Source: Acidobacteriota bacterium
GTDB taxonomy: Bacteria; Acidobacteriota; Terriglobia; Terriglobales; Acidobacteriaceae
DNA length: 64,000 nt
Assembly: GCA_021780315.1 (NCBI GenBank)
Contig: JAJXYY010000042.1
Span: 1-64,000 of the forward strand
Direction of reading: 5' to 3'
Shown piece by piece: positions 10,082 through 60,257 of the stretch (position 1 is the first letter of the stretch; each line of letters opens with the position of its first letter). The notes under the pieces were generated by a model. It searched no databases, was not told where the DNA came from, and worked only from the letters and a program-made list of their open reading frames with translations. The position numbers were made by a program, and so were the translations under genes.

Positions 10082-12169
10082 ATGAATCTTAAGTCACCGT
10101 CCCTTGCTTGTTTGCTACTCCTGTCCGGCGGATTGTGCTTTGGCCAGTCGCTCATGACAATGACCGATAATGGGAGTGCCCCGACGTCCGAACCGAAGAA
10201 GCCGGTCATCTTCGATCTCTCTGCCATCGACAAGACGGTTGATCCTTGCACTGATTTTTACAAGTACGCGTGCGGAAACTGGGTGAAGAACAACCCAATT
10301 CCCAGTGACCAGGTGCGGTGGGGGCGCTTCAACGAACTGGCGGAGCGCAATAACTATTTGTTGTATGCGGATCTGAAGGCTGCGGCAGATGCGCCGAAGA
10401 GTGCCTTGCAGAAGAAGTATGGCGATTACTTTGCGGCATGTATGAATGTGGATCTGGCTGACAAGCTGGGTGCAGCCCCTCTGAAGCTGCAGATGGCTGC
10501 GATTGCAGGATTGAACGACAAGAAGCAGCTGGCTGCGCTGGTGAGCGAGTTGCACAACTTCTATGCTGTACCGGTCTTTTATTTTCTGGGGGTGCAGCAG
10601 GACCAGAAGGACTCCAGCCAACAGATTGCGACGACGATGCAGGGTGGGCTGACCTTGCCGGACCGGGACTACTACCTGACGGACGATGCGCGCAGCCAGA
10701 AGATTCGCGAGCAGTATGTGGAGCATGTGACGAAGATGTTTATGCTGCTGGGCGACTCGGCAGAGAAGGCCGCTGCGGAAGCGAAGGATGTGATGTCGGT
10801 GGAGACGGCGCTGGCGAAGGGTTCCACGAGCCGGGTGGAGCTGCGGAATCCAGCCAACCGGTACCACATGATGACGATTGCGGAGTTGCAGGCGCTGAGC
10901 CCGGACTACAACTGGACGACCTACCTGACGAGCATCAAGATGAATGAGCTGAAGTCGCTGAATGTTGCGACGCCGGCCTTCTTTAAGACGATGAATGAAC
11001 AGATTGACGGGCAGAGTCTGGATGCACTCAAGAGCTACCTGCGGTGGCAAGCGTTGCGTACAGCAGCACCGGCGTTGTCGAAGCCATTTGTCGATGAGAA
11101 CTTCAACTTTTTCCAGGCGACGCTGCAGGGGCAGAAGGAACAGACTCCGCGCTGGAAGCGGTGCACCCGCGCCACAGATGCGGCCCTGGGCGAGGCAGTG
11201 GGTCAGGACTGGGTGAAGCAGAACTTCCCGCCTGACGCGAAGGCGAACATGGAGAAGCTAGTTGCGGCTTTGGAGAAGGCACTGGGAGAGGATATCCAGA
11301 GCCTGCCGTGGATGAGCGAGCCTACCAAGGTCGAGGCGGAGGCGAAGCTGAATACGATTCGTCAGAAGATCGGCTATCCGGAGAACTGGCGCGATTACAG
11401 CAAGTTGACGGTGAAGCGCGACGATTTCCTGGGAAATACGGAGCGCAACTTCGAGTTTGAGCGGCAGCGCAATCTGGCAAAGCTGGGCAAGCCGGTCGAC
11501 GAAAAGGAGTGGGGGATGACGCCACCGACGGTGAATGCGTACTACAACCCACCGCAGAACGACATCAACTTCCCTGCCGGGATTCTGCAGCCACCGTTCT
11601 TCGATAACAGCATGGATCCTGCGGTGAACTTTGGCGGTATCGGCGTGGTGATTGGCCACGAGATGACGCACGGGTTTGACGATCAGGGGTCGAAGTATGA
11701 CCTGCACGGAAACGTGCGGACGTGGTTTACTGCAGACGATTTGAAGAAGTTCAACGAGCGGACCGACTGCGTCGCGAATGAGTATTCGGGGTTCCAGGTG
11801 GCCGAGGGGCAGAATTTGAATGGCAAGTTGACGCTGGGTGAGAACACGGCGGACAACGGGGGCATTCGGATTGCTTATCAGGCGCTGCTGGAGACGATTG
11901 CCAAGCAGGGTGCGGCTGCAGAGCCGGGATACAGCAACGGAGAGCGCGACGGATATACCCCGGAGCAGCGGTTCTTTATCTCGTTTGGCCAGGTGTGGTG
12001 TCAGAATGCCACGGAGCAGAGTGCTCGAGTGCTGGCGAAGACTGATCCGCACAGCTCTGGCGAGTGGCGGGTGAAGGGAACGGTCCAGAACTTCGACGCG
12101 TTTGGCAAGGCGTTTGGCTGCAAGGTTGGCCAACCGATGATGCCGACGAATAGTTGCCGTGTCTGGTAA
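10082..12169 (+). CDS. Secreted M13-family zinc metallopeptidase (PepO/neprilysin type)
   Basis: The 695-residue protein begins with a signal peptide (about residues 1-21, ending CFGQS). It has the two-domain M13 layout: a large N-terminal helical domain and a C-terminal catalytic domain. The zinc site HEMTH is at residues 526-530 and the third ligand Glu587 is in ENTADNGG, which also supplies the supporting Asp591. A C-terminal CRVW ending is typical of M13 peptidases. The enzyme should cut oligopeptides outside the cytoplasm. The ATG has the ribosome binding site AAGGA upstream. It is a single-gene unit ended by a terminator 55 bases after the stop. Confidence 0.95.
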   Translation: MNLKSPSLACLLLLSGGLCFGQSLMTMTDNGSAPTSEPKKPVIFDLSAIDKTVDPCTDFYKYACGNWVKNNPIPSDQVRWGRFNELAERNNYLLYADLKAAADAPKSALQKKYGDYFAACMNVDLADKLGAAPLKLQMAAIAGLNDKKQLAALVSELHNFYAVPVFYFLGVQQDQKDSSQQIATTMQGGLTLPDRDYYLTDDARSQKIREQYVEHVTKMFMLLGDSAEKAAAEAKDVMSVETALAKGSTSRVELRNPANRYHMMTIAELQALSPDYNWTTYLTSIKMNELKSLNVATPAFFKTMNEQIDGQSLDALKSYLRWQALRTAAPALSKPFVDENFNFFQATLQGQKEQTPRWKRCTRATDAALGEAVGQDWVKQNFPPDAKANMEKLVAALEKALGEDIQSLPWMSEPTKVEAEAKLNTIRQKIGYPENWRDYSKLTVKRDDFLGNTERNFEFERQRNLAKLGKPVDEKEWGMTPPTVNAYYNPPQNDINFPAGILQPPFFDNSMDPAVNFGGIGVVIGHEMTHGFDDQGSKYDLHGNVRTWFTADDLKKFNERTDCVANEYSGFQVAEGQNLNGKLTLGENTADNGGIRIAYQALLETIAKQGAAAEPGYSNGERDGYTPEQRFFISFGQVWCQNATEQSARVLAKTDPHSSGEWRVKGTVQNFDAFGKAFGCKVGQPMMPTNSCRVW

Positions 12170-51791: not shown

Positions 51792-53405
51792 CTATTGGAA
51801 CTGGTAGACGGCCACCTTTTCGGTGTGGAGCTCTCCCTGGTCGACACGCCAGTAGTTGCCCTGATCGCTTTCGTCACCGTTGAGGCGGCGGCCGGGGAGC
51901 CACTTCCCTGCCACGAATTTGCCCTCGTCGATGGAGGCTATGCCGACGTGAGCGGTGGCTGGGTAGCGGAGTGTGAAGGAGACATGGAAGCCCTTGCCGG
52001 CGCCGAGGAAGTGATCTGGGCCGTCGGCCATGATGATGCCGAAGCCTTTTTCGGTGTGGTTGCCGAAGAGCTCGTCGAGGCTGACGTGGAGGACGTAACC
52101 GTTGAAGGTGAACTCGACGGAGGGGTGAGATTTATCGAGGACGAAGCCGTGGATATCGCCGGCGGCCTGATGCTGGAGGAGGAGTGGGGTGAGCGTGGTG
52201 AGGAGCGCGTAGCTGTCTCCGAGTTCGGTGGAGGCACCAGTGGCGGAGTCGATGGCGAAGGGCGAGAAGCCGATGGCGGCGTGCTCACCGAGAGCGTAGA
52301 AGACGTTGGCTGCGCCTGCTGCTCCGCCGTTGGTTTCGGGGAGGAAGAGGGGGTTTCCGTTGCGGTGGTATTGCGTGGTCCAACTGGCCAAGTCGGGGGA
52401 GTAGAGGTCGGGAGCGAAGATGTCGATGGCGGAGCCGGCTGCTTTCCAGACGTCGATGACGCGGGGCTCCGGGCCGCCACTGGGGAAGACGCCGGGGATA
52501 GCACTGGGACCTGCGAGCCAGGTGTTGACGTACATGGGGAGGTTGTAGGCGGCTTTGCCCTGTGCGGTGACGGTCTGGATGAAGCGGGCGTAGTTCCATG
52601 CCATGAAGATTTCGTCTGCGCGAGAGGTATCGCCGAAGACCTGAGCCCAGGTGCCGGAGGTTTTACGGCCATTCTGAAACCAGAGGGCGCGGAGGTCGGG
52701 GTCGAGAGATTCGACGTGGGACTGGAGGTACTGGAGCAGATCCGCGGGGACAGCGGAGGCGAAGGCGCGGTTGGCTTCGGGGGAGTGATCGCGGGTGTCG
52801 CCGAGGACGCCTACTTCGTTTTCTACCTGCATCAAAAGGACGGTGTGGTCTTGAGCATCAACCTGACGGAGGTGCTGCATGACGGCGGCGAAGGCGCGGG
52901 CGTCGGCGTCGCGGGTGGCAGGGGCCAAGGTGCTGAGGATGCCGATCGGGTTGCCGTTGACGATGACGCGCGGAAAGCGCTTGGAGTCCTGCTTGACCCA
53001 GACGGGCGGGTAGCTGGACATACCGTTTTTCCAGGAGGCTAGCCAGAGGAAGACGATGTGCATGTGCTGCTGGCGGGCCTGGGCGAGGAGGCCGTCGATT
53101 AGGGTGAAGTCGAAGTGGCCTTCGGTGGGTTCAACGAGCTCCCAGGAGATGGGGGTGAGAACGGTATTGAGGGACATGGCAGCGAGGCGAGCCCATTGCG
53201 GCTGCATGTATTCGAGGCTGGACGAGCTGGAGTTGTAGAGCTCGCCGGAGAGCATGAGGAAGGGCTGGCCATCGACGATGAGTTGGGTGGTGACGCCACG
53301 TTTTTCCAGATGGGGGAAGCTGGGTTGCTGCGCGGCGAGTTGGCTGGCGGGGAGGAGGGCGGAGAAGAGCAGAAGGATTGGCAACGCGGCGATTGGGGTT
53401 CTCAT
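51792..53405 (-). CDS. Secreted beta-galactosidase-like enzyme, GH35/DUF5597 type
   Basis: The 537-residue protein starts at the ATG at 53405 with a signal peptide (residues 1-25). The TIM barrel has the GH35 features FLMLSGELYNSS (about 49-60), WELVEPTEGHFDF (88-100) and the acid/base in QVENEVG (Glu197). The probable nucleophile is in PETNGG near residue 365. The C-terminal part (about 390-537) matches the DUF5597 beta domain. Substrate is likely beta-galactosides of plant polymers. The in-frame ORF extends upstream to 53552, but that part overlaps the his leader region on the other strand and is not coding. Confidence 0.88.
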   Translation of the reverse strand: MRTPIAALPILLLFSALLPASQLAAQQPSFPHLEKRGVTTQLIVDGQPFLMLSGELYNSSSSSLEYMQPQWARLAAMSLNTVLTPISWELVEPTEGHFDFTLIDGLLAQARQQHMHIVFLWLASWKNGMSSYPPVWVKQDSKRFPRVIVNGNPIGILSTLAPATRDADARAFAAVMQHLRQVDAQDHTVLLMQVENEVGVLGDTRDHSPEANRAFASAVPADLLQYLQSHVESLDPDLRALWFQNGRKTSGTWAQVFGDTSRADEIFMAWNYARFIQTVTAQGKAAYNLPMYVNTWLAGPSAIPGVFPSGGPEPRVIDVWKAAGSAIDIFAPDLYSPDLASWTTQYHRNGNPLFLPETNGGAAGAANVFYALGEHAAIGFSPFAIDSATGASTELGDSYALLTTLTPLLLQHQAAGDIHGFVLDKSHPSVEFTFNGYVLHVSLDELFGNHTEKGFGIIMADGPDHFLGAGKGFHVSFTLRYPATAHVGIASIDEGKFVAGKWLPGRRLNGDESDQGNYWRVDQGELHTEKVAVYQFQ

Positions 53406-53464: not shown

Positions 53465-53493
53465 TTGACAAGCTGAGGCCGTGCGGGTAATTT
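53465..53493 (+). promoter_or_regulatory. his operon promoter
   Basis: A perfect -35 hexamer TTGACA (53465-53470) is followed after 17 bases by TAATTT (53488-53493). The transcript should start around 53499-53501, at or just before the ATG of the leader peptide. It is the closest match to a sigma-70-type promoter seen in the window. Confidence 0.75.
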
Positions 53494-53501
53494 TGAGTGT
53501 A

Positions 53502-53588
53502 ATGAACGTTCGTTCGCAGCATCACGGGCACCATCACCATCACCATGCGCATAGCGTGTTGGCGGCTGTGTCCGGTGTGACGAAGTAA
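53502..53588 (+). CDS. hisL: Histidine operon leader peptide (28 aa, nine His codons)
   Basis: The ORF of 28 codons has His at positions 7, 8, 10-15 and 17, including six in a row, using both CAT and CAC. It lies directly upstream of the operon hisIGDCBHFA and is followed by a rho-independent terminator. This is the layout of transcription attenuation leaders such as E. coli hisL. Scarcity of charged His-tRNA would stall the ribosome on these codons. No Shine-Dalgarno sequence is present. The predicted transcription start is only 0-3 bases before the ATG, so the peptide may be translated from a leaderless end. Eleven codons follow the last His. Confidence 0.85.
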   Translation: MNVRSQHHGHHHHHHAHSVLAAVSGVTK

Positions 53589-53610
53589 CGAACGTACACC
53601 AAGGATTGAA

Positions 53611-53648
53611 AAGGCCCGCTAACGCGCACATCGCGAGCGGGCCTTTTT
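53611..53648 (+). terminator. his attenuator terminator
   Basis: AAGGCCCGCT (53611-53620) pairs with AGCGGGCCTT (53636-53645), and CGCG/CGCG pairs inside. Five T residues follow at 53644-53648. The competing antiterminator is GCGTGTTGGCGG (53554-53565) pairing with CCGCTAACGCGC (53616-53627): 12 pairs with two G-U, which would take up the left arm of the terminator. A third hairpin GGTGT-GACG/CGT-ACACC (53574-53600) spans the leader stop codon. hisI starts 49 bases after the T run. Confidence 0.85.
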
Positions 53649-53697
53649 GCTGCGCGATGGCGAGTTGCCGGAACCTAACGCTGGACAGGAGAGAGAA

Positions 53698-54048
53698 ATG
53701 GACGCTGTGAAGATTGACTTTGCCAAGATGGATGGCCTGGTCCCGGGAATTGTGCAGGATGCGAAGACGGGCGAGATGCTGATGCTGGGTTTTTTGAACG
53801 AAGTGAGCTATGCGAAGACGCTGGAGACGGGCTTTGTGACGTTCTGGAGCCGGACGCGAAGCAAGCTGTGGATGAAGGGCGAGACCAGCGGCAACCGTCT
53901 GCGAGTGATTGAAGCTTCGACCGATTGCGATAACGATGCGCTGCTGTTCAAGGTCGAGGTGGAAGGCGATGGACTGGTGTGCCACGAGGGTACGGTGAGC
54001 TGCTTTACAAAATCTATTTCAGTTACAAATAACGAGGGGAGCAAGTAA
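53698..54048 (+). CDS. hisI: Phosphoribosyl-AMP cyclohydrolase
   Basis: HisI opens the purine ring of phosphoribosyl-AMP, the third step of histidine synthesis. The 116-residue protein has the family motifs [20 protein letters not shown] and [15 protein letters not shown], then [11 protein letters not shown], which supply the metal-binding Asp and Cys residues. There is no HisE domain, so the pyrophosphohydrolase must come from elsewhere in the genome. The ATG at 53698 follows AGGAGAG. It is the first gene after the attenuator; its TAA overlaps the ATG of hisG by one base. Confidence 0.95.
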
Positions 54049-54932
54049 TGGCGGAAGCGAAGCAGAAGTTGAAGCTGGGAATTCCCAAGGGCAGCCTGCA
54101 GGATGCGACGATTGCGCTGTTTGAACGCGCGGGCTGGAAGATCTATGCAAGCGGCCGGAGCTACTTTCCTTCGATCGACGATACGGAGATTGAGTGCATG
54201 CTGGTACGGGCGCAGGAGATGGCCCGGTATGTGGAGCATGGTGCGCTGGATGCGGGCCTGACGGGCAATGACTGGGTGCTGGAGAACCAGACAGATGTGG
54301 AGTACGTGACGAGCCTGACGTATTCCAAGGTGAGCCGGCAGAAGGTGCGTTGGGTGCTGTGCGTACCTGAGGATTCGCCGTTCCAGAAGCCGGAAGACCT
54401 GGCGGGGAAGACGATTGCAACGGAGTTGGTGGAGTTTACGAAGCGCTACTTTGCGGAGAAGAATATTCCGGTGAAGGTGGAGTTCAGCTGGGGCGCTACG
54501 GAAGTAAAGCCGCCGACGCTGGCAGATGCGATTGTTGAGGTGACAGAGACGGGATCGAGTCTGCGGGCTAACCGTTTGCGGATTATCGAGACACTGATGG
54601 AGAGCGAGACACAGTTGATCGCAAACAAAACTTCGTTTGCGGACACGTGGAAGCGCGAGAAGATTGAGAATATTGCGCTGATGCTGAATGCAGCGATCGC
54701 GGCACAGGGCAAGGTGGGGCTCTTGCTGAATGTGCCGAAGACGCAGTTCGATGCAGTGGTTGCAGTGTTGCCTGCGCTGAATTCGCCGACGGTTTCGCAG
54801 TTGAGCGATGCTGGGTGGCTGGCACTGAACACGATTCTGGATGAGCGCGATGTGCGCGATGTGATTCCAAAGCTGAAGGCTGCGGGCGCGACGGGGATTG
54901 TGGAGTATCCGTTGAGCAAGGTAGTTTTGTAG
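54048..54932 (+). CDS. hisG: ATP phosphoribosyltransferase, long form
   Basis: HisG joins ATP and PRPP, the first and controlled step of histidine synthesis. The 294-residue length and the C-terminal domain (about residues 222-294, [15 protein letters not shown] and [10 protein letters not shown]) show the long, self-sufficient type with its own histidine-binding regulatory domain, so no HisZ is needed. The N-terminal [28 protein letters not shown] and the PRPP-binding [16 protein letters not shown] segments are clear. Feedback inhibition by histidine is expected. Its ATG overlaps the hisI stop (TAATG). Confidence 0.97.
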
Positions 54933-54954
54933 TTTGTAACCAATTGAGGTCGCA

Positions 54955-56217
54955 ATGAAGCTGGTACGTACGTTTGGTCGAGGAGCGAAGGCAGCTACGG
55001 CGTTGATTCGGACGCTGGAGCAACGAGGCGCCTTGAATACGGCGCGAGTCGAGGCAGTGGTGCGGGAGATCTTGTCCGAAGTGCGGCAGGGTGGGGATGC
55101 CGCGCTGCGCCGCTATGCGGGAGAGTACGACTCGCTTGGCGCGGGGCAGGAACTGTTGGTCTCGCAGGAGGAGATGAAGGCTGCGTGGGAGACCACTGAT
55201 CCGAAGCTGCAGGAGGCGATGCGGGTGGCGCAGGCTAACATTCGCGGATTTGCAGAGGCACAGAAGCCGCAGGAGTGGATGATGTCTCCTGCGGAGGGAG
55301 TGAAGACGGGCCAGATTGTGAGGCCGCTGGGGAGCGTGGGCTGCTATGTGCCGGGCGGGCGGTATCCGCTGCCTTCGACGCTGCTGATGACGGTGACTCC
55401 GGCGCAGGTGGCGGGAGTGGAGCGGATTGTGGTGTGCTCGCCAAAGCCAGTGAAGGAGACGATGGCAGCGGCTTGGCTGGCGGGGGTAACGGAGTTTTAC
55501 CGGGTGGGCGGGGCGCAGGCGATTGCGGCGATGGCGTATGGAACGGAGTCGCTGGGACGGGTAGATAAGATTGTGGGACCGGGAAATCTGTTTGTGACGG
55601 CGGCTAAGCTGCTGGTTTCGGCGGAGTGCGGGATCGATATGCCAGCGGGACCCACGGAGATTGGCGTGACGAGTGAGACCGGAGATGCGGCTGGAATTGC
55701 GGCGGATCTGGTGGCGCAGGCCGAGCATGATCCGGAAGCGCTGGCGGTGCTGATTACCAGCCGCGAGGCGTTGGCCGAGGCTGTTGCAGCCGAGGTGAAG
55801 GAGCAGTCGAAGACGAATACACTGGCGAAGAAGTCGTTGTCGGCGCAGGGCTGTATTTTTGTAACCGAAACTGTTGCAGAAGCGCAGGCACTGACGAACC
55901 GGCTGGCGCTTGAGCACCTGACGGTGGATTCGGCGGCGGATTTGAAGTGGGTGAAGAATGCGGGCAGTGTGTTTGTTGGCGCTTATTCGCCGCAGTCGAT
56001 GGGGGATTATGTGTCGGGTCCGAACCACGTGCTGCCTACTGGACGGAACGGCCGGATGCGTGCGGGGCTGAGCGTGATGGATTTCGTGAAGGTGATAACG
56101 GTGCAGCAGTATACGCGCAAGGGACTGAAGGAGTTGGGACCTTACGCTGTGGCACTGGCAGAGGCAGAGGGGCTGACCGGCCACGCGGAGAGCGTGCGGC
56201 AGAGGATGAAGCGTTAG
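54955..56217 (+). CDS. hisD: Histidinol dehydrogenase
   Basis: HisD oxidises L-histidinol to L-histidine in two NAD-dependent steps, the last of the pathway. The 420-residue protein has GSVGCYVPGGRYPLPSTLLMT (about residues 125-145), GPGNLFVTAAK, DMPAGPTEIGV and the catalytic/metal site AEHDPEA. PSGNHVLPT-like sequence (VSGPNHVLPTG) and HAESVRQRMKR complete the family pattern. It follows hisG by 22 bases. No unusual features. Confidence 0.97.
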   Translation: MKLVRTFGRGAKAATALIRTLEQRGALNTARVEAVVREILSEVRQGGDAALRRYAGEYDSLGAGQELLVSQEEMKAAWETTDPKLQEAMRVAQANIRGFAEAQKPQEWMMSPAEGVKTGQIVRPLGSVGCYVPGGRYPLPSTLLMTVTPAQVAGVERIVVCSPKPVKETMAAAWLAGVTEFYRVGGAQAIAAMAYGTESLGRVDKIVGPGNLFVTAAKLLVSAECGIDMPAGPTEIGVTSETGDAAGIAADLVAQAEHDPEALAVLITSREALAEAVAAEVKEQSKTNTLAKKSLSAQGCIFVTETVAEAQALTNRLALEHLTVDSAADLKWVKNAGSVFVGAYSPQSMGDYVSGPNHVLPTGRNGRMRAGLSVMDFVKVITVQQYTRKGLKELGPYAVALAEAEGLTGHAESVRQRMKR

Positions 56218-56228
56218 AACGTGAGGAC

Positions 56229-57359
56229 ATGATGGCATTTGCTACCGATGTGGTTACACAAACAAGAACGGTACAGCCGCGGCGTGCGGTGCTGGCTATG
56301 CCGGAGTACCATCCTCCTCTGGCGGAGCGCAAGGCGTTGCGGCTGGACTTCAACGAGAACACACTGGCACCGAGTCCGCGGGTGATGGAACGGCTGCAGG
56401 CGATTACGGCTGAAGGGCTGACGAAGTATCCGGAGCGGGAGCCGGTCGAGCGGATTGTTGCCGAACACTTTGGCTTGCAAGGCGAGCAGGTGCTGCTGAC
56501 CAATGGGGTAGATGAGGCGATTCACCTGATGTGCACTACGTTTTTGGATGAAGGCGATGAGGCGTTGATTACGACGCCTACGTTTTTCATGTATGACGTG
56601 AATGTGCAACTGATGGTTCCGCAGGGGCTGCGGAAGGTGCAGGCGGATGCTTCGCTGGAGTTTCCGTTTGAGCGATTTATGGCGGCGATTACGGAGAAGA
56701 CGAAGTTGATCATGGTGGCTTCGCCGAATAATCCTACTGGTACGGTGGTGCGGCGGGAGCATCTGCTGGCGATTGCGCAGGCGGCTCCGCATGCGGTGCT
56801 GATGGTGGATGAGGCGTACTACCATTTTGACGGGGCGACGACGATAGGCGATCTGAATTCGGTTCCGAATTTGATTGTGGCGCGGACGTTCTCGAAGGCG
56901 TATGGACTGGCGAATCTACGGATTGGGATGCTGGCCGGGAACGCAGAGCTGCTGAAGTATGTGCGGAAGACCTGCTCACCGTACAACGTGAATGGAGTGG
57001 CGCTGGATTGCCTGCAGGCGGCGATAGAAGATGAGGCTTACCTGGCGTGGTATGTGGACCAGGTGCGGGTGGGTCGAGAGCGAATGATGGCTGGACTGCG
57101 GGAGTTGGGGGTTCCGTTCTGGACGAGCCATGCGAATTTTGTACTGATGAATATTGGGCCGAAGCATGCTGCGTTGGTGCAGGCGATGCGAGGGCATGGC
57201 GTGTTGCTGCGTGACCGGTCGGCTGATCCGGGGTGCGATGGTTGCGTGCGGATCACGATTGGCGTGGAAGAGCATGTGACGGCTGGCTTAGTGGCGTTGC
57301 AGAGTTGTTTAGAAGAGATTGGCTGGGAGAAGCAGCAAGTTAGCGGGTTAGCGGGTTAG
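56229..57359 (+). CDS. hisC: Histidinol-phosphate aminotransferase
   Basis: HisC transfers an amino group from glutamate to imidazole-acetol phosphate. It is a 376-residue fold-type I PLP enzyme. LDFNENTLAPSP is at the N terminus, SPNNPTGT (about residue 170) and DEAYYHF in the middle, the PLP-binding lysine is in RTFSKAYGLANLRIG, and the phosphate-binding arginine is in VRITIG. The ATG at 56229 is immediately followed by a second ATG; GAGGAC lies just before. The last codons and the stop lie in a tract of an 8-base repeat (TTAGCGGG) that runs beyond the gene. Confidence 0.95.
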   Translation: MMAFATDVVTQTRTVQPRRAVLAMPEYHPPLAERKALRLDFNENTLAPSPRVMERLQAITAEGLTKYPEREPVERIVAEHFGLQGEQVLLTNGVDEAIHLMCTTFLDEGDEALITTPTFFMYDVNVQLMVPQGLRKVQADASLEFPFERFMAAITEKTKLIMVASPNNPTGTVVRREHLLAIAQAAPHAVLMVDEAYYHFDGATTIGDLNSVPNLIVARTFSKAYGLANLRIGMLAGNAELLKYVRKTCSPYNVNGVALDCLQAAIEDEAYLAWYVDQVRVGRERMMAGLRELGVPFWTSHANFVLMNIGPKHAALVQAMRGHGVLLRDRSADPGCDGCVRITIGVEEHVTAGLVALQSCLEEIGWEKQQVSGLAG

Positions 57360-57369
57360 CGGGTTAGCG
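57340..57369 (+). repeat. 8-base tandem repeat across the hisC stop codon
   Basis: TTAGCGGG is repeated three times and followed by TTAGCG. The unit length is not a multiple of three, so gain or loss of a unit changes the C-terminal residues of HisC and the distance to hisB. A new in-frame TAG is always near because the unit contains TTAG. Confidence 0.85.
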
Positions 57370-57385
57370 AAAGGAGTTTTGAGGA

Positions 57386-57994
57386 ATGGCGAAGAGTTTG
57401 GGCAAGGTTCGGACGGGTACGATCAAGCGGAGTACTACGGAGACGCAGATTGCGTTGAAGCTGGTGATCGATGGGCAGGGCGTTTACAAGGTGTCGACGG
57501 GGATTCGGTTCTTCGATCACATGCTGGAGTTGTTTACGCGGCATGGTGGATTTGACCTGACGCTGACGTGTACGGGCGATCTGGATGTGGACCAGCACCA
57601 TACGGTGGAGGATGTCGGGATTGCGCTGGGCGAGGCTTTCAACAAGGCGCTGGGCGATAAGAAGGGCATCATGCGCGCTGGGTACTTTGTGATGGCGATG
57701 GATGAGACGCTGGCGGTGGCTGCGGTGGATTTGAGCGGGCGCGTTGCTTATGTTGTCGACGATAAGGTGAAGGTGCGGCTGGTGGGGGATTTCCAGAGTG
57801 AGTTGCTGGCGGATTTCTTCGATGGGTTTGCTCGCGGCGCGAAGGCGAATGTGCATGTGAAGACGATGTATGGGCGGAGTAATCATCACAAGATCGAGGC
57901 GATTTTCAAGGCGTTTGCGCGAGCGCTGCGTGGGGCTTGCAGCCGGGATGAACGGATGCGGGAGATGCTGCCAAGTACGAAGGGGTTGCTGTGA
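57386..57994 (+). CDS. hisB: Imidazoleglycerol-phosphate dehydratase
   Basis: HisB removes water from imidazoleglycerol phosphate. The 202-residue protein is the monofunctional dehydratase, without the phosphatase domain found in E. coli HisB. Its metal-binding motifs are [17 protein letters not shown] (with [10 protein letters not shown]-like [14 protein letters not shown]) and the second copy [17 protein letters not shown]-like [18 protein letters not shown] separate histidinol-phosphatase gene must exist elsewhere. The ATG follows GAGGA. It overlaps hisH by four bases (GTGA). Confidence 0.97.
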
Positions 57995-58599
57995 TTGCAG
58001 TGATTGATTACAAGGCGGGAAATCTGACCAGCGTGGTGAAGGCGCTGAAGTATGTGGGCGCGGAGACGTTGGTGACGCAGGACCCAGAGGTGGTGCTCCG
58101 GGCCGCGAAGGTGGTGCTGCCGGGGGTGGGACACTTTCAGGCTACGCAGTTGCTGTCGGAGTTGGGGATTACGGCGGCGGTGCGAGAGAGTGTGGCGAAG
58201 GGCGCGTGGTTTCTGGGGATTTGCGTGGGGATGCAGTGGTTGTTTGAGGGCTCGACGGAGGCTCCGGGGGTGGTGGGGCTGGGGCATTTTGAAGGGATGT
58301 GTGAGCGGTTCCCTGCTGTGTTTGAGGGTGCAGAGTTGAAGTCGCCGCATGTGGGTTGGAACTCACTGGAACGGGTGCGTGAGGATTCGCGTTTGCTGCG
58401 GGGTGTTGCGGAGGGTGGGTTTGTGTATTACACACACTCTTGGCGGGCTCCGGTGGTACAAGCAACTGCTTCGGTTACAGAATACGGTGGTGCGTTTACG
58501 GGCGTGGTGGAGCGAGAGAATGTGATGGGGGTGCAGTTTCATCCGGAGAAGTCGAGCGCGGTGGGATTGCGGATGTTGCAGAATTTTGTGGAGTTGTGA
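57991..58599 (+). CDS. hisH: Imidazole glycerol phosphate synthase, glutaminase subunit
   Basis: HisH releases ammonia from glutamine and passes it to HisF. The 202-residue class I amidotransferase has the nucleophile Cys in [14 protein letters not shown] (about residue 78) and the catalytic His-Pro-Glu in [10 protein letters not shown] near residue 182. The first strand is VIDYKAGNL. It starts at a GTG that overlaps the hisB stop, so the two are translationally coupled. hisF follows after an 81-base gap. Confidence 0.96.
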
Positions 58600-58680
58600 A
58601 TAGAGTGGACGGCCTACGAGAGCAGAGTAGATCGTCGGCTGTGAGAGGGTTGGCAATTTTGATGGAGATGGGGTGTTAGC

Positions 58681-59451
58681 GTGCTGACGAAGAGGATTAT
58701 CGCTTGTCTGGATGTGCGGGATGGGCGGGTGGTGAAGGGCGTGCAGTTTGTCGATATCGTGGATGCGGGCGATCCGGCGGAGTTGGCGCATCGTCATGCG
58801 GCGGCGGGTGCGGATGAGATTGTGCTGCTGGATATTACGGCGACGCACGAGGGACGGGGGACGCTGATCGATACGGTGCAACGGACGGCGGCGACGCTGT
58901 TTGTGCCGTTTACGGTGGGCGGTGGGATCAGGAGTGCGGAGGATGCGGCGGCGGTGTTCGACGCGGGTGCGGACAAGGTGAGTATCAATTCGAGTGCGAT
59001 TGCGCGGCCGGAGCTGATTGGGGAGATTGGCGGGAGCTTTGGGGCGCAGGCGGTGATTGTGGCGATTGATGCGCGGCGGGGCGTGCTGGGAGTAGAGGAC
59101 GCCGAGGTGTACGTCAGCGGCGGTCGCAAGGCTACTGGGCTGCGGGTGGTGGATTGGGCCATCGAGGCGGAACAGCGGGGGGCGGGAGAGATTCTGCTGA
59201 CGAGTATGAATACGGATGGGATGCGGAACGGGTTTGATTGCGAGTTAACGGCGATGGTGTCGAGTGCGGTACAGATACCGGTGATTGCGAGCGGCGGGGC
59301 GGGTACGGCGGCGCACTTTGCGGAGGTGTTTGGACGCGGCAAGGCAGATGCAGCGCTGGCAGCGAGTATTTTTCACTTTGGGGTTACGGATTCACGGGAG
59401 TTGAAGGCGGAGTTGCGGCGGGCGGGGGTTAGTGTTCGTCTGCCGTGTTGA
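58681..59451 (+). CDS. hisF: Imidazole glycerol phosphate synthase, cyclase subunit
   Basis: HisF makes imidazole glycerol phosphate and AICAR from PRFAR and ammonia. The 256-residue TIM barrel has the catalytic Asp in [18 protein letters not shown] (Asp11) and a second in VAIDARRG (near 130), with the phosphate-binding loops [11 protein letters not shown] and [11 protein letters not shown]. It starts at a GTG at 58681. It is separated from hisH by 81 bases and from hisA by 101 bases, longer gaps than elsewhere in the operon. Confidence 0.96.
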
Positions 59452-59497
59452 AGGGGGAGTTTGTGTGGGGACGGAGCAACGGCAACGACAGAAGCAG

Positions 59498-59518
59498 ATC
59501 CTCCGCTTCGCGAAGGAT
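59498..59518. repeat. Short inverted repeat in the hisF-hisA spacer
   Basis: ATCCTCCG and CGAAGGAT (one mismatch) surround CTTCG. The motif GATCCTCCGCTTCGCGAAGGATGACA resembles small palindromic repeats seen in acidobacterial intergenic DNA. Confidence 0.4.
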
Positions 59519-59552
59519 GACAACTAAAAATTTTAGATAAGGGGAGTGTTCG

Positions 59553-60257
59553 ATGTTGATACCTTCGATTGATTTGATGGGTGGGCGGATTGTGCAGTTG
59601 GTGCAGGGCGAGAAGTTGAAGCTGGCGTTTGATGATTTCGAGTATTGGATTGAGCGGTTCAGCAAGTATCCGGTGGTGCAGTTGATCGATCTGGATGCGG
59701 CGATGCGGCAGGGGGATAATCGTGCGCTGATCGAGATGATCTGCAAGCGTCTTCCTTGCCAGGTGGGTGGGGGGTTGAAGACGGCGGAGGATGGGCGGGC
59801 GCTGCTGGACGCGGGAGCGAAGCGGGTGATCTATGGGTCGAGCCTGTTTGGTGCACCGGTGGAGGGCGAAGGGCCGCGGCGGCATAAGGTGATTCGGCTG
59901 GAGTTTGCGGAGGCGCTGAAGAAGACGCTGGGTGAGGATGCGCTGGTGTTTAGCGTAGATACGAAGGGCGGGCGTGTAGCGGTGAAGGGGTGGAAGGACT
60001 CGGTTGATTTGACGCCGGAAGAAGCCGTGACGTGGCTGGAGGATTGCTGCGCTGCGTTTCTGTATACGCATGTGGATACGGAGGGGACGATGACGGGTTT
60101 TCCGCTGGATGTGGCGGCGATTCTGCGGGCTTGTACGGCGAAGCAGTTGATTGTGGCGGGGGGAATCAAGGAGCGCGCGGAGGTGGATGCTCTGGATGCG
60201 ATGGGGGTGGATGCGGTGGCGGGGATGGCGGTTTATTCGGGGGCGATGGAGGCGTAA
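59553..60257 (+). CDS. hisA: Phosphoribosylformimino-AICAR-phosphate isomerase
   Basis: HisA carries out the Amadori rearrangement from ProFAR to PRFAR. The 234-residue TIM barrel begins MLIPSIDLMGGRIVQLVQGE, with catalytic Asp7. The second Asp is in LVFSVDTKGGRVAVKGW (near residue 132). VGGGLKTAED and IVAGGI form the phosphate-binding sites. It lacks the typical SGGI-S-D loop wording but keeps the key residues, so it is a divergent form. It is last in the his operon. No clear terminator follows before the convergent VWA gene. Confidence 0.9.
   Translation: MLIPSIDLMGGRIVQLVQGEKLKLAFDDFEYWIERFSKYPVVQLIDLDAAMRQGDNRALIEMICKRLPCQVGGGLKTAEDGRALLDAGAKRVIYGSSLFGAPVEGEGPRRHKVIRLEFAEALKKTLGEDALVFSVDTKGGRVAVKGWKDSVDLTPEEAVTWLEDCCAAFLYTHVDTEGTMTGFPLDVAAILRACTAKQLIVAGGIKERAEVDALDAMGVDAVAGMAVYSGAMEA

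Follow-up and report, generated by a model that had tools for sequence, protein, structure and literature searches.

A candidate histidine-dependent transcription attenuator, probably with a leaderless leader peptide, precedes the his operon throughout a family of Acidobacteriota

Introduction

Attenuation of amino acid operons by translation of a short leader peptide is a known mechanism, and two enterobacterial systems are among those closest to the locus described here. The his leader hisL works via a terminator and an antiterminator and has a six-segment design. In the Escherichia coli trp attenuator the regulatory codons lie in arm 1, arms 2 and 3 form the antiterminator (2:3) and arms 3 and 4 form the terminator (3:4).

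The occurrence of such systems across bacterial phyla has been surveyed by comparative means. Passages of Naville and Gautheret (2010) state that leader-peptide systems had, to their knowledge, been shown only in Proteobacteria and Actinobacteria, mention two hisS paralogs of bacilli that are preceded by a His leader, and describe predicted attenuators in phyla such as Acidobacteria as including almost none with associated functions (PMC2965389). A 2005 paper detected no conserved RNA structure ahead of the histidine operons of Actinobacteria (PMC1262725), and parts of a 2022 paper predict His-leader attenuators in the Bacillus cereus group, Peptostreptococcaceae and Erysipelotrichales, all Firmicutes (PMC9413887). 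Some leader peptides of this kind are leaderless: sections of the respective papers place the start of the Sinorhizobium meliloti trpL RNA at its ATG (PMC7298713) and the ilvBNC start site of Corynebacterium glutamicum one nucleotide from the ilvL start, the latter within an antiantiterminator / antiterminator / terminator model (PMC11857589), and a review cites, in one of its passages, leaderless cysteine ORFs in mycobacteria (PMC9031893). For Acidobacteria, we found no earlier report of a his attenuator in the literature searched, most subscription journals lying outside that scope.

Here we describe an element found in a window of 64,000 nucleotides (the whole stretch of DNA analysed, from a soil acidobacterium), where an earlier reading of the letters only (below, the sequence-only reading) had proposed a histidine-dependent attenuator. 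The parts and their comparison among relatives make it likely, with a probability that we put at roughly 0.88, that the his operon is regulated by ribosome-mediated transcription attenuation. The novelty lies in the probable presence of this known mechanism throughout an Acidobacteriota family, and we consider as firmest new points its family-wide conservation with covariation, the failure of the Rfam model RF00514, and the predicted leaderless start.

Results

The organism and its his operon

The best named relatives of the window's hisG belong to Acidobacteriaceae bacterium clean1821 (99%), Granulicella and Edaphobacter, in agreement with the acidobacterium presumed at the outset. The operon opens with hisI, whose ATG at 53698 lies 49 bases after a T run, and Pfam families follow in the order PRA-CH, HisG, histidinol dehydrogenase, class I/II aminotransferase, IGPD, GATase and His_biosynth twice; we take the names hisC, hisH, hisF and hisA from gene order and family knowledge (Table 1). 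HisE (PRA-PH, PF01503) was not found in the own genome and was present in 14 of 14 control genomes. Weak partial HisE matches in 10 of 60 family genomes (22.5-32.5 bits, profile positions about 20-82 of 86) sit in open frames of at least 280 residues and are possibly MazG-like proteins; another enzyme may serve the HisE step in the family's histidine pathway. The intergenic region that holds the his promoter also serves a divergent gene on the minus strand (51792-53405), which gives DUF5597 and beta-galactosidase-like (GH35/GH42) matches.

Table 1. Features of the his leader region and operon (window coordinates)
Feature	Positions	Strand	Basis or remark
-35 element TTGACA of his promoter	53465-53470	+	sequence; TTGAC in 129/133 distinct leaders vs 3.6% of shuffles
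-10 element TAATTT	53488-53493	+	NANNNT 15-19 nt after TTGACN in 127/133
Predicted transcription start	near 53500 (about 53498-53502)	+	inference
Leader peptide ORF, 28 codons, nine His	53502-53588	+	predicted leaderless; counterpart ORFs in relatives
Regulatory His codons 7, 8, 10-15, 17	53520-53552	+	translation
Arm 1	53520-53548	+	putative pairing with 53554-53579 (1:2 hairpin, anti-antiterminator); moderate support
Arm 2, antiterminator 5' arm	53554-53565	+	12 pairs with arm 3; covariation
GGATT element	53603-53607	+	between leader stop and terminator; GGAT in 70/133 leaders
Arm 3, antiterminator 3' arm	53616-53627	+	overlaps left terminator arm; covariation
Intrinsic terminator	53609-53648	+	arms 53609-53620 / 53636-53647, 12/12 pairs; T run 53644-53648
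hisI (PRA-CH), first operon gene	53698-54048	+	Pfam PF01502; own Shine-Dalgarno
hisG, hisD, hisC, hisB (IGPD only), hisH, hisF, hisA	54048-60257	+	Pfam

Parts of the element

The leader ORF, which extends from an ATG at 53502-53504 to a TAA at 53586-53588, encodes MNVRSQHHGHHHHHHAHSVLAAVSGVTK, and six of its nine His codons are consecutive (codons 10-15). Upstream of it the two promoter hexamers are 17 nt apart, and downstream a 12-bp terminator (-27.2 kcal/mol), with outer arms separated by 15 nt, is followed by five Ts. The antiterminator helix, 53554-53565 with 53616-53627, has 12 pairs, two of them G-U, and excludes the terminator because bases 53616-53620 are common to both. The sequence-only reading had named the promoter, the 28-codon ORF with nine His, the terminator with its T run and hisI 49 bases on, all of which can be read directly in the sequence; its 12-pair alternative helix, said to consume the left terminator arm, likewise holds, with the five bases just given being shared. 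The parts that it listed thus stand, and those that it left out are arm 1 and the missing room for a 5' untranslated region.

The region 53490-53655 folds with z = -3.69. Over both strands of the whole window 2,236 start codons open ORFs of 10-45 amino acids; at least four His within ten residues occur in four ORFs, three of which have exactly 4 and the leader ORF 8. Elsewhere, a short ORF at 12064 (plus strand) has three Trp in ten residues and a hairpin with a T run 94 nt on, a combination that is probably due to chance.

A simple promoter scan and a terminator scan made no call at the element. TAATTT matches TATAAT at only 3/6 positions and the terminator scan admitted loops of 3-8; we read the two misses as consequences of the weak -10 match and of the 15-nt gap between the terminator arms. 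Two candidate parts were rejected. An in-frame start at 53481 would fall between the promoter hexamers. An inverted repeat, 53503-53514 / 53587-53598, is 92% complementary and as a further helix would hide the leader start; across relatives the own partner binds about as well as a swapped one (-15.25 vs -15.06, own better in 49%), for which reason we left the repeat out of the list of parts.

Conservation across the family

The first set of 110 loci consisted of 30 obtained by searching 120 family genomes for hisI (the own genome and 29 others) and 80 via a hisG scan; hisI was matched in 85 of the 120 genomes, fifteen further matched genomes staying outside the locus set. hisI is present in 101 of the 110 loci and absent in 9, and L057 has no upstream DNA. 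A second set added forty family loci, 39 of them readable. A His-containing leader precedes hisI in every readable locus of both sets (100/100 and 39/39, together 139/139). In the first 100 loci the most His-rich upstream short ORF, picked by script, has at least four His, the weakest being L064 and L110 with 4, and a count of 11 in L083 stems from an over-long start; all 39 leaders of the second set contain 5 to 10 His.

By script, a hairpin with a T run lies upstream of hisI in 99/100 loci of the first set, and a hairpin of -12 kcal/mol or lower before at least four Ts in 37/39 of the second. In the exception of the first set, L029, a terminator hairpin is visible by eye, and in L030, where the script's terminator call is spurious, the same element is nonetheless visible. 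Attenuation might act through translation of hisI (start sequestration) or through Rho instead of intrinsic termination, and the short T runs of some loci, such as L118 and L120, which failed the four-T test, would suit such a mechanism; the hairpin-then-T-run order in 99/100 and 37/39 script calls and the position of the window's hairpin, which ends 49 nt before hisI and leaves the hisI Shine-Dalgarno outside, make it very improbable. Intrinsic termination within the attenuator is the reading that we follow below.

The arm analysis covered 138 of 141 loci (L026, L057 and L121 were dropped), with 133 distinct leaders; three of its loci, L102, L106 and L110, come from outside the family (Acidiferrales and Terriglobia by title). 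The contigs of L061, L077 and L083 are titled Verrucomicrobia or Rhodanobacteraceae, carry a hisG 84-85% identical to the window's and have the same leader; they are probably mislabelled or mixed assemblies. The motif GGAT(T) is kept in 70/133 leaders, mostly about 10-12 nt before the terminator, vs a shuffled mean of 6.6 (maximum 15). Its position does not fit a Shine-Dalgarno of hisI, and our guess is a pause site. The sequence-only reading had named the leaders of close relatives as one test of its case; in these leaders the His-codon ORF, the terminator and a covarying alternative helix are all retained.

The promoter and a predicted leaderless start

TTGAC, a spacing of 15-19 nt, NANNNT and then an in-frame ATG or GTG 6-16 nt on are found in 127/133 distinct leaders, vs 0.5% of shuffled upstream DNA. 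The hexamers are mostly 17-18 nt apart, and the gap from the -10 element to the start codon is 8-10 nt in 92/127 leaders (8 in the window). In 129 leaders anchored on TTGAC, the key -10 positions (T, A, T) reach 0.72, 1.06 and 0.94 bits, vs 0.08-0.24 per spacer position. At promoters of the sigma-70 type the first transcribed base usually lies about 7 nt downstream of the -10 element, which would leave a 5' untranslated region of 0-5 nt in most leaders. Strong anti-Shine-Dalgarno energies (-5 or lower) occur at 13/133 leader starts vs 102/131 hisI starts of the same loci; the identity of the start codon is no evidence here, because the ORF picker favoured ATG. Taken from these sequence patterns, the leader ORF is probably leaderless.

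The same attenuator could instead have a conventional 5' untranslated region, with TTGAC / NANNNT unused or with a promoter further upstream. The transcription start is a predicted one, the -10 match is weak, 13/133 leaders have a strong Shine-Dalgarno-like stretch, and among 20 non-family leaders TTGAC is found at -37 to -45 from the start in 11 and is lacking in that place in 9, all of which would agree with this arrangement. What speaks against it is that 127/133 leaders, vs 0.5% of shuffles, have both hexamers within a tight range of distances to the start, around a spacer that is unconserved, and we regard it as unlikely, though deserving more weight than the translation or Rho mechanism; the leaderless start is the arrangement that we prefer.

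Pairing and covariation of the antiterminator and terminator

For the family-wide comparison, arm 2 was placed by sequence alone, and the terminator's CCCGC served to locate arm 3. The arm 2 : arm 3 duplex has a mean energy of -22.3 kcal/mol in 96 leaders, vs -15.4 (sd 3.3) with a shuffled arm 2 region, and 93 distinct arm pairs form 951 standard pairs, vs 913.5 (sd 5.1, maximum 937) in 10,000 permutations. Covariation was scored in A1, a MAFFT alignment of 80 leaders that were chosen for distinct arms and good anchors and hence are favourable; the shuffles overstate significance because the relatives are not independent. The sequence-only reading had proposed to look for covariation in both helices, and in A1 both have it: the antiterminator shows 37 double-changed cells vs 15.8 shuffled and the terminator 38 vs 17.6, values that 0/500 shuffles reach in either case. 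Likewise out of reach of 500 shuffles are the fraction of antiterminator cells that pair (88.2% vs 84.8%) and its covariation score (0.225 vs 0.179). The remaining two of the five measures are weak for 2:3, with 7 double-change pairs vs 4.9 (16/500 shuffles reach it) and 19 further pair types vs 17.5 (90/500).

Pairing falls to 19.5-55.5% when the antiterminator partner is slid by 1-3 columns. Of the 12 pairs, the outermost two are kept in 67.5% of cells and the inner ten in 92.2%. Bases 53621-53622, which bulge in the window's terminator but pair in the antiterminator, are among those that covary, and the pair of 53622 appears in relatives as U-A, C-G and G-C. In L003, L059, L060 and L074 an extra base in arm 3 leaves 6/12 positions paired in register, and a bulged helix remains.

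Relative to the leader stop, the script-placed arm 2 lies in another frame in 12/138 loci, and in L022 the peptide differs with the RNA arm 2 kept; retention of the arm despite the change of frame points to selection on RNA. These observations bear on the possibility that the ORF encodes a functional His-rich microprotein, for instance a metal-binding one, with the hairpin as an ordinary terminator or boundary. Six consecutive His do resemble metal-binding tags and a tail, SVLAAVSG, is common to part of the family, yet that tail varies between subgroups and stands in another frame in the 12 loci just mentioned with the RNA arm retained, covariation links arm 2 to arm 3, and at E <= 0.01 the element lies only before hisI in the 34 matched family genomes (see below). 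We give the microprotein hardly any credence and return to the attenuator.

A putative arm 1 and the modelled order of switching

In the window, 53502-53583 folds at -27.2 kcal/mol, the inner hairpin of 1:2 alone at -11.2. Arms 1 and 2 of the same leader fold better together than arms swapped between relatives (-22.2 vs -19.8), the own arms being superior in 105/133 comparisons with a foreign arm 2 and in 93/133 with a foreign arm 1; permutation of synonymous codons gives a mean z of -0.50 for 1:2, with 70% of values below zero. These comparisons of sequences lend moderate support to a pairing of arm 1 with arm 2, which would complete a trp-like 1:2 / 2:3 / 3:4 design.

The effect of a ribosome was modelled by masking its footprint at each codon and folding the RNA up to arm 3, at equilibrium, with no kinetics and no steric term. 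Over 133 leaders the mean probability of the antiterminator, P(2:3), is 0.70 with the ribosomal A site on the first His, 0.75 at a middle His and 0.54 at the last His of the tract, then 0.08 two codons past the tract and at most 0.01 from four codons past; it is 0.42 with no ribosome and 0.44 at the stop codon. For the window leader it is 0.80-0.90 at codons 7-14, 0.12 at codon 15, zero at codons 16-27, 0.65 at codon 28 and 0.87 at the stop, and on RNA with no ribosome P(2:3) is 0.00, with 1:2 at 0.83. In this model stalling would free arm 2, and a ribosome over arm 2 or, in the window leader, empty RNA would block it. Termination by default would accordingly be clear for the window leader but not for the 133-leader set.

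The masking folds at the first and middle His codons (mean P(2:3) 0.70-0.75) side with the sequence-only reading, in which a stalled ribosome leaves the antiterminator arm free, and its doubt over what a ribosome does at the stop codon is justified, arm 2 being free there in the equilibrium fold. The distance from arm 2 to the stop is 20 nt in 62/138 loci and at most 16 nt in 41/138; at the latter distance part of arm 2 would lie under a ribosome at the stop. Where the ribosome at the stop leaves arm 2 free, fed-state termination would have to rest on timing or on refolding after release.

Reach within the phylum

An Rfam scan of the whole window gave no family at gathering score, RF00514 His_leader and T-box included. 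Thr_leader (25.9 bits, cut-off 55) and Trp_leader (17.6 bits, cut-off 41) stayed below threshold and were rejected, a similar layout and ACC/CAC repeats not amounting to membership. With stricter filters, RF00514 (cut-off 49 bits) scored over its cut-off in 0/149 phylum genomes, with one weak match of 36 bits; the E. coli control genome scores above it.

A model of the element, R1, was built from A1 with the terminator helix, some of the searched genomes being also in the training alignment. In the own genome R1 finds one good copy and two weak extra matches, one of them the other strand of the terminator. At E <= 0.01, with stricter filters, it matches 53/297 phylum genomes, among them 34/36 sampled family genomes. 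Each of the 34 has a single match, which lies directly before hisI and on the same strand; in the two family genomes that it missed, a hisI match is likewise absent. The E. coli his leader scores 28.7 bits with R1, which shared His codons and the terminator may explain, so that R1 scores near 30 do not show common descent. Three loci with R1 matches outside the family were examined, other such matches scoring 26-28 bits. L194 and L195 were rejected, since they contain no His-leader and none of their products matches the his proteins of the window. In the third, L196 (family f65, a distant member of the phylum), positions 700-960, a His-leader, MTVIRHHHHHGNKLQDLMLLR, and a terminator precede hisG and a hisC-like gene; such leaders can thus precede a different first gene.

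Among 40 picked non-family loci, 19 have a His-rich leader near hisI, and for 17 of these the script also called a terminator; the 19 belong to ten families (f2, f14, f23, f27, f32, f42, f44, f56, f60 and f72), to which f65 adds an eleventh. Note that f2 is of the same class, the others being labelled only as of the same phylum, and that the f27 leader comes from a genome with 8% contamination, the other f27 locus being without a leader. The search covered the surroundings of hisI, so the 21 loci without a leader are not evidence of absence and may have one before another first gene. Upstream of hisG in the ten loci L101-L110, a His-leader is seen in L102, L106 and L110 only; none was found there in five loci labelled Chlorobiaceae or in L101 and L103. 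A strict script could score the antiterminator in 6/20 non-family leaders, 2/6 beating shuffles at p <= 0.05, which leaves the antiterminator a candidate feature in the further families.

Discussion

We propose that the RNA would begin with the leader AUG or only a few bases away from it and that a ribosome would load on the 5' end with no need of a Shine-Dalgarno. Under a shortage of charged tRNA-His, this ribosome would stall on the His codons and cover arm 1, and the free arm 2 would capture the emerging arm 3, so that no terminator forms and the operon is transcribed. With ample histidine, the ribosome would be over arm 2 or would have finished, arm 3 would be left to arm 4, and transcription would end near 53648 with an RNA of about 149 nt. 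On an RNA with no ribosome, 1:2 would form in the window leader and termination would be the default. The computed support for this scheme consists of the parts, their conservation, their position and the covariation of 2:3 and 3:4. Predicted elements of it are the start site, translation, stalling, the response to histidine and the order of events at the stop codon.

On a wider scale, the element might represent an old, phylum-wide class of Acidobacteriota his attenuator, separate from hisL and leaderless, in which loading at the 5' end sets the coupling between ribosome and polymerase and which, with the leaderless trpL and ilvL, would make this a recurrent design; we hold this view tentatively, at somewhat less than even odds. 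The Rfam His_leader model misses the Acidobacteriaceae lineage. If the leaderless start is true, it can be asked how the polymerase and a ribosome loading at the 5' end are kept in step, and whether this is commonly solved by leaderless leaders.

Compared with enterobacterial hisL (RF00514), the common features are a His-codon leader peptide before the his operon, as judged on the E. coli hisL sequence, and a terminator with an antiterminator, as given in the relevant passages of the 2022 paper (PMC9413887). The two differ in that the window element goes unrecognised by RF00514, its first gene is hisI and not hisG, and its design would comprise three helices instead of six segments; upstream of E. 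coli hisL, none of the six best promoter-like pairs ends 3-16 nt before the start. With the E. coli trp attenuator, the element would share regulatory codons in arm 1, a 2:3 antiterminator and a 3:4 terminator. It differs in having His codons, not Trp, and a stop 20 nt after arm 2, so that, unlike in trp, arm 2 need not be covered when a ribosome is at the stop. The trpL of S. meliloti and the ilvL of C. glutamicum would have in common with it a leaderless leader peptide, their start sites being known and the one here predicted; they concern other amino acids and other phyla.

The sequence-only reading had expected an extension of His-leader attenuation from Proteobacteria to an acidobacterium; Acidobacteriota do appear as new ground, but this is not the first step beyond Proteobacteria, Firmicutes having been predicted already in parts of the 2022 paper (PMC9413887). 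The Firmicutes His-leaders treated in those parts were similarly predicted outside Proteobacteria and are similarly missed by RF00514. They occur in small, scattered groups and contain runs of three to five His codons; the element described here is family-wide, most of its leaders having at least five His.
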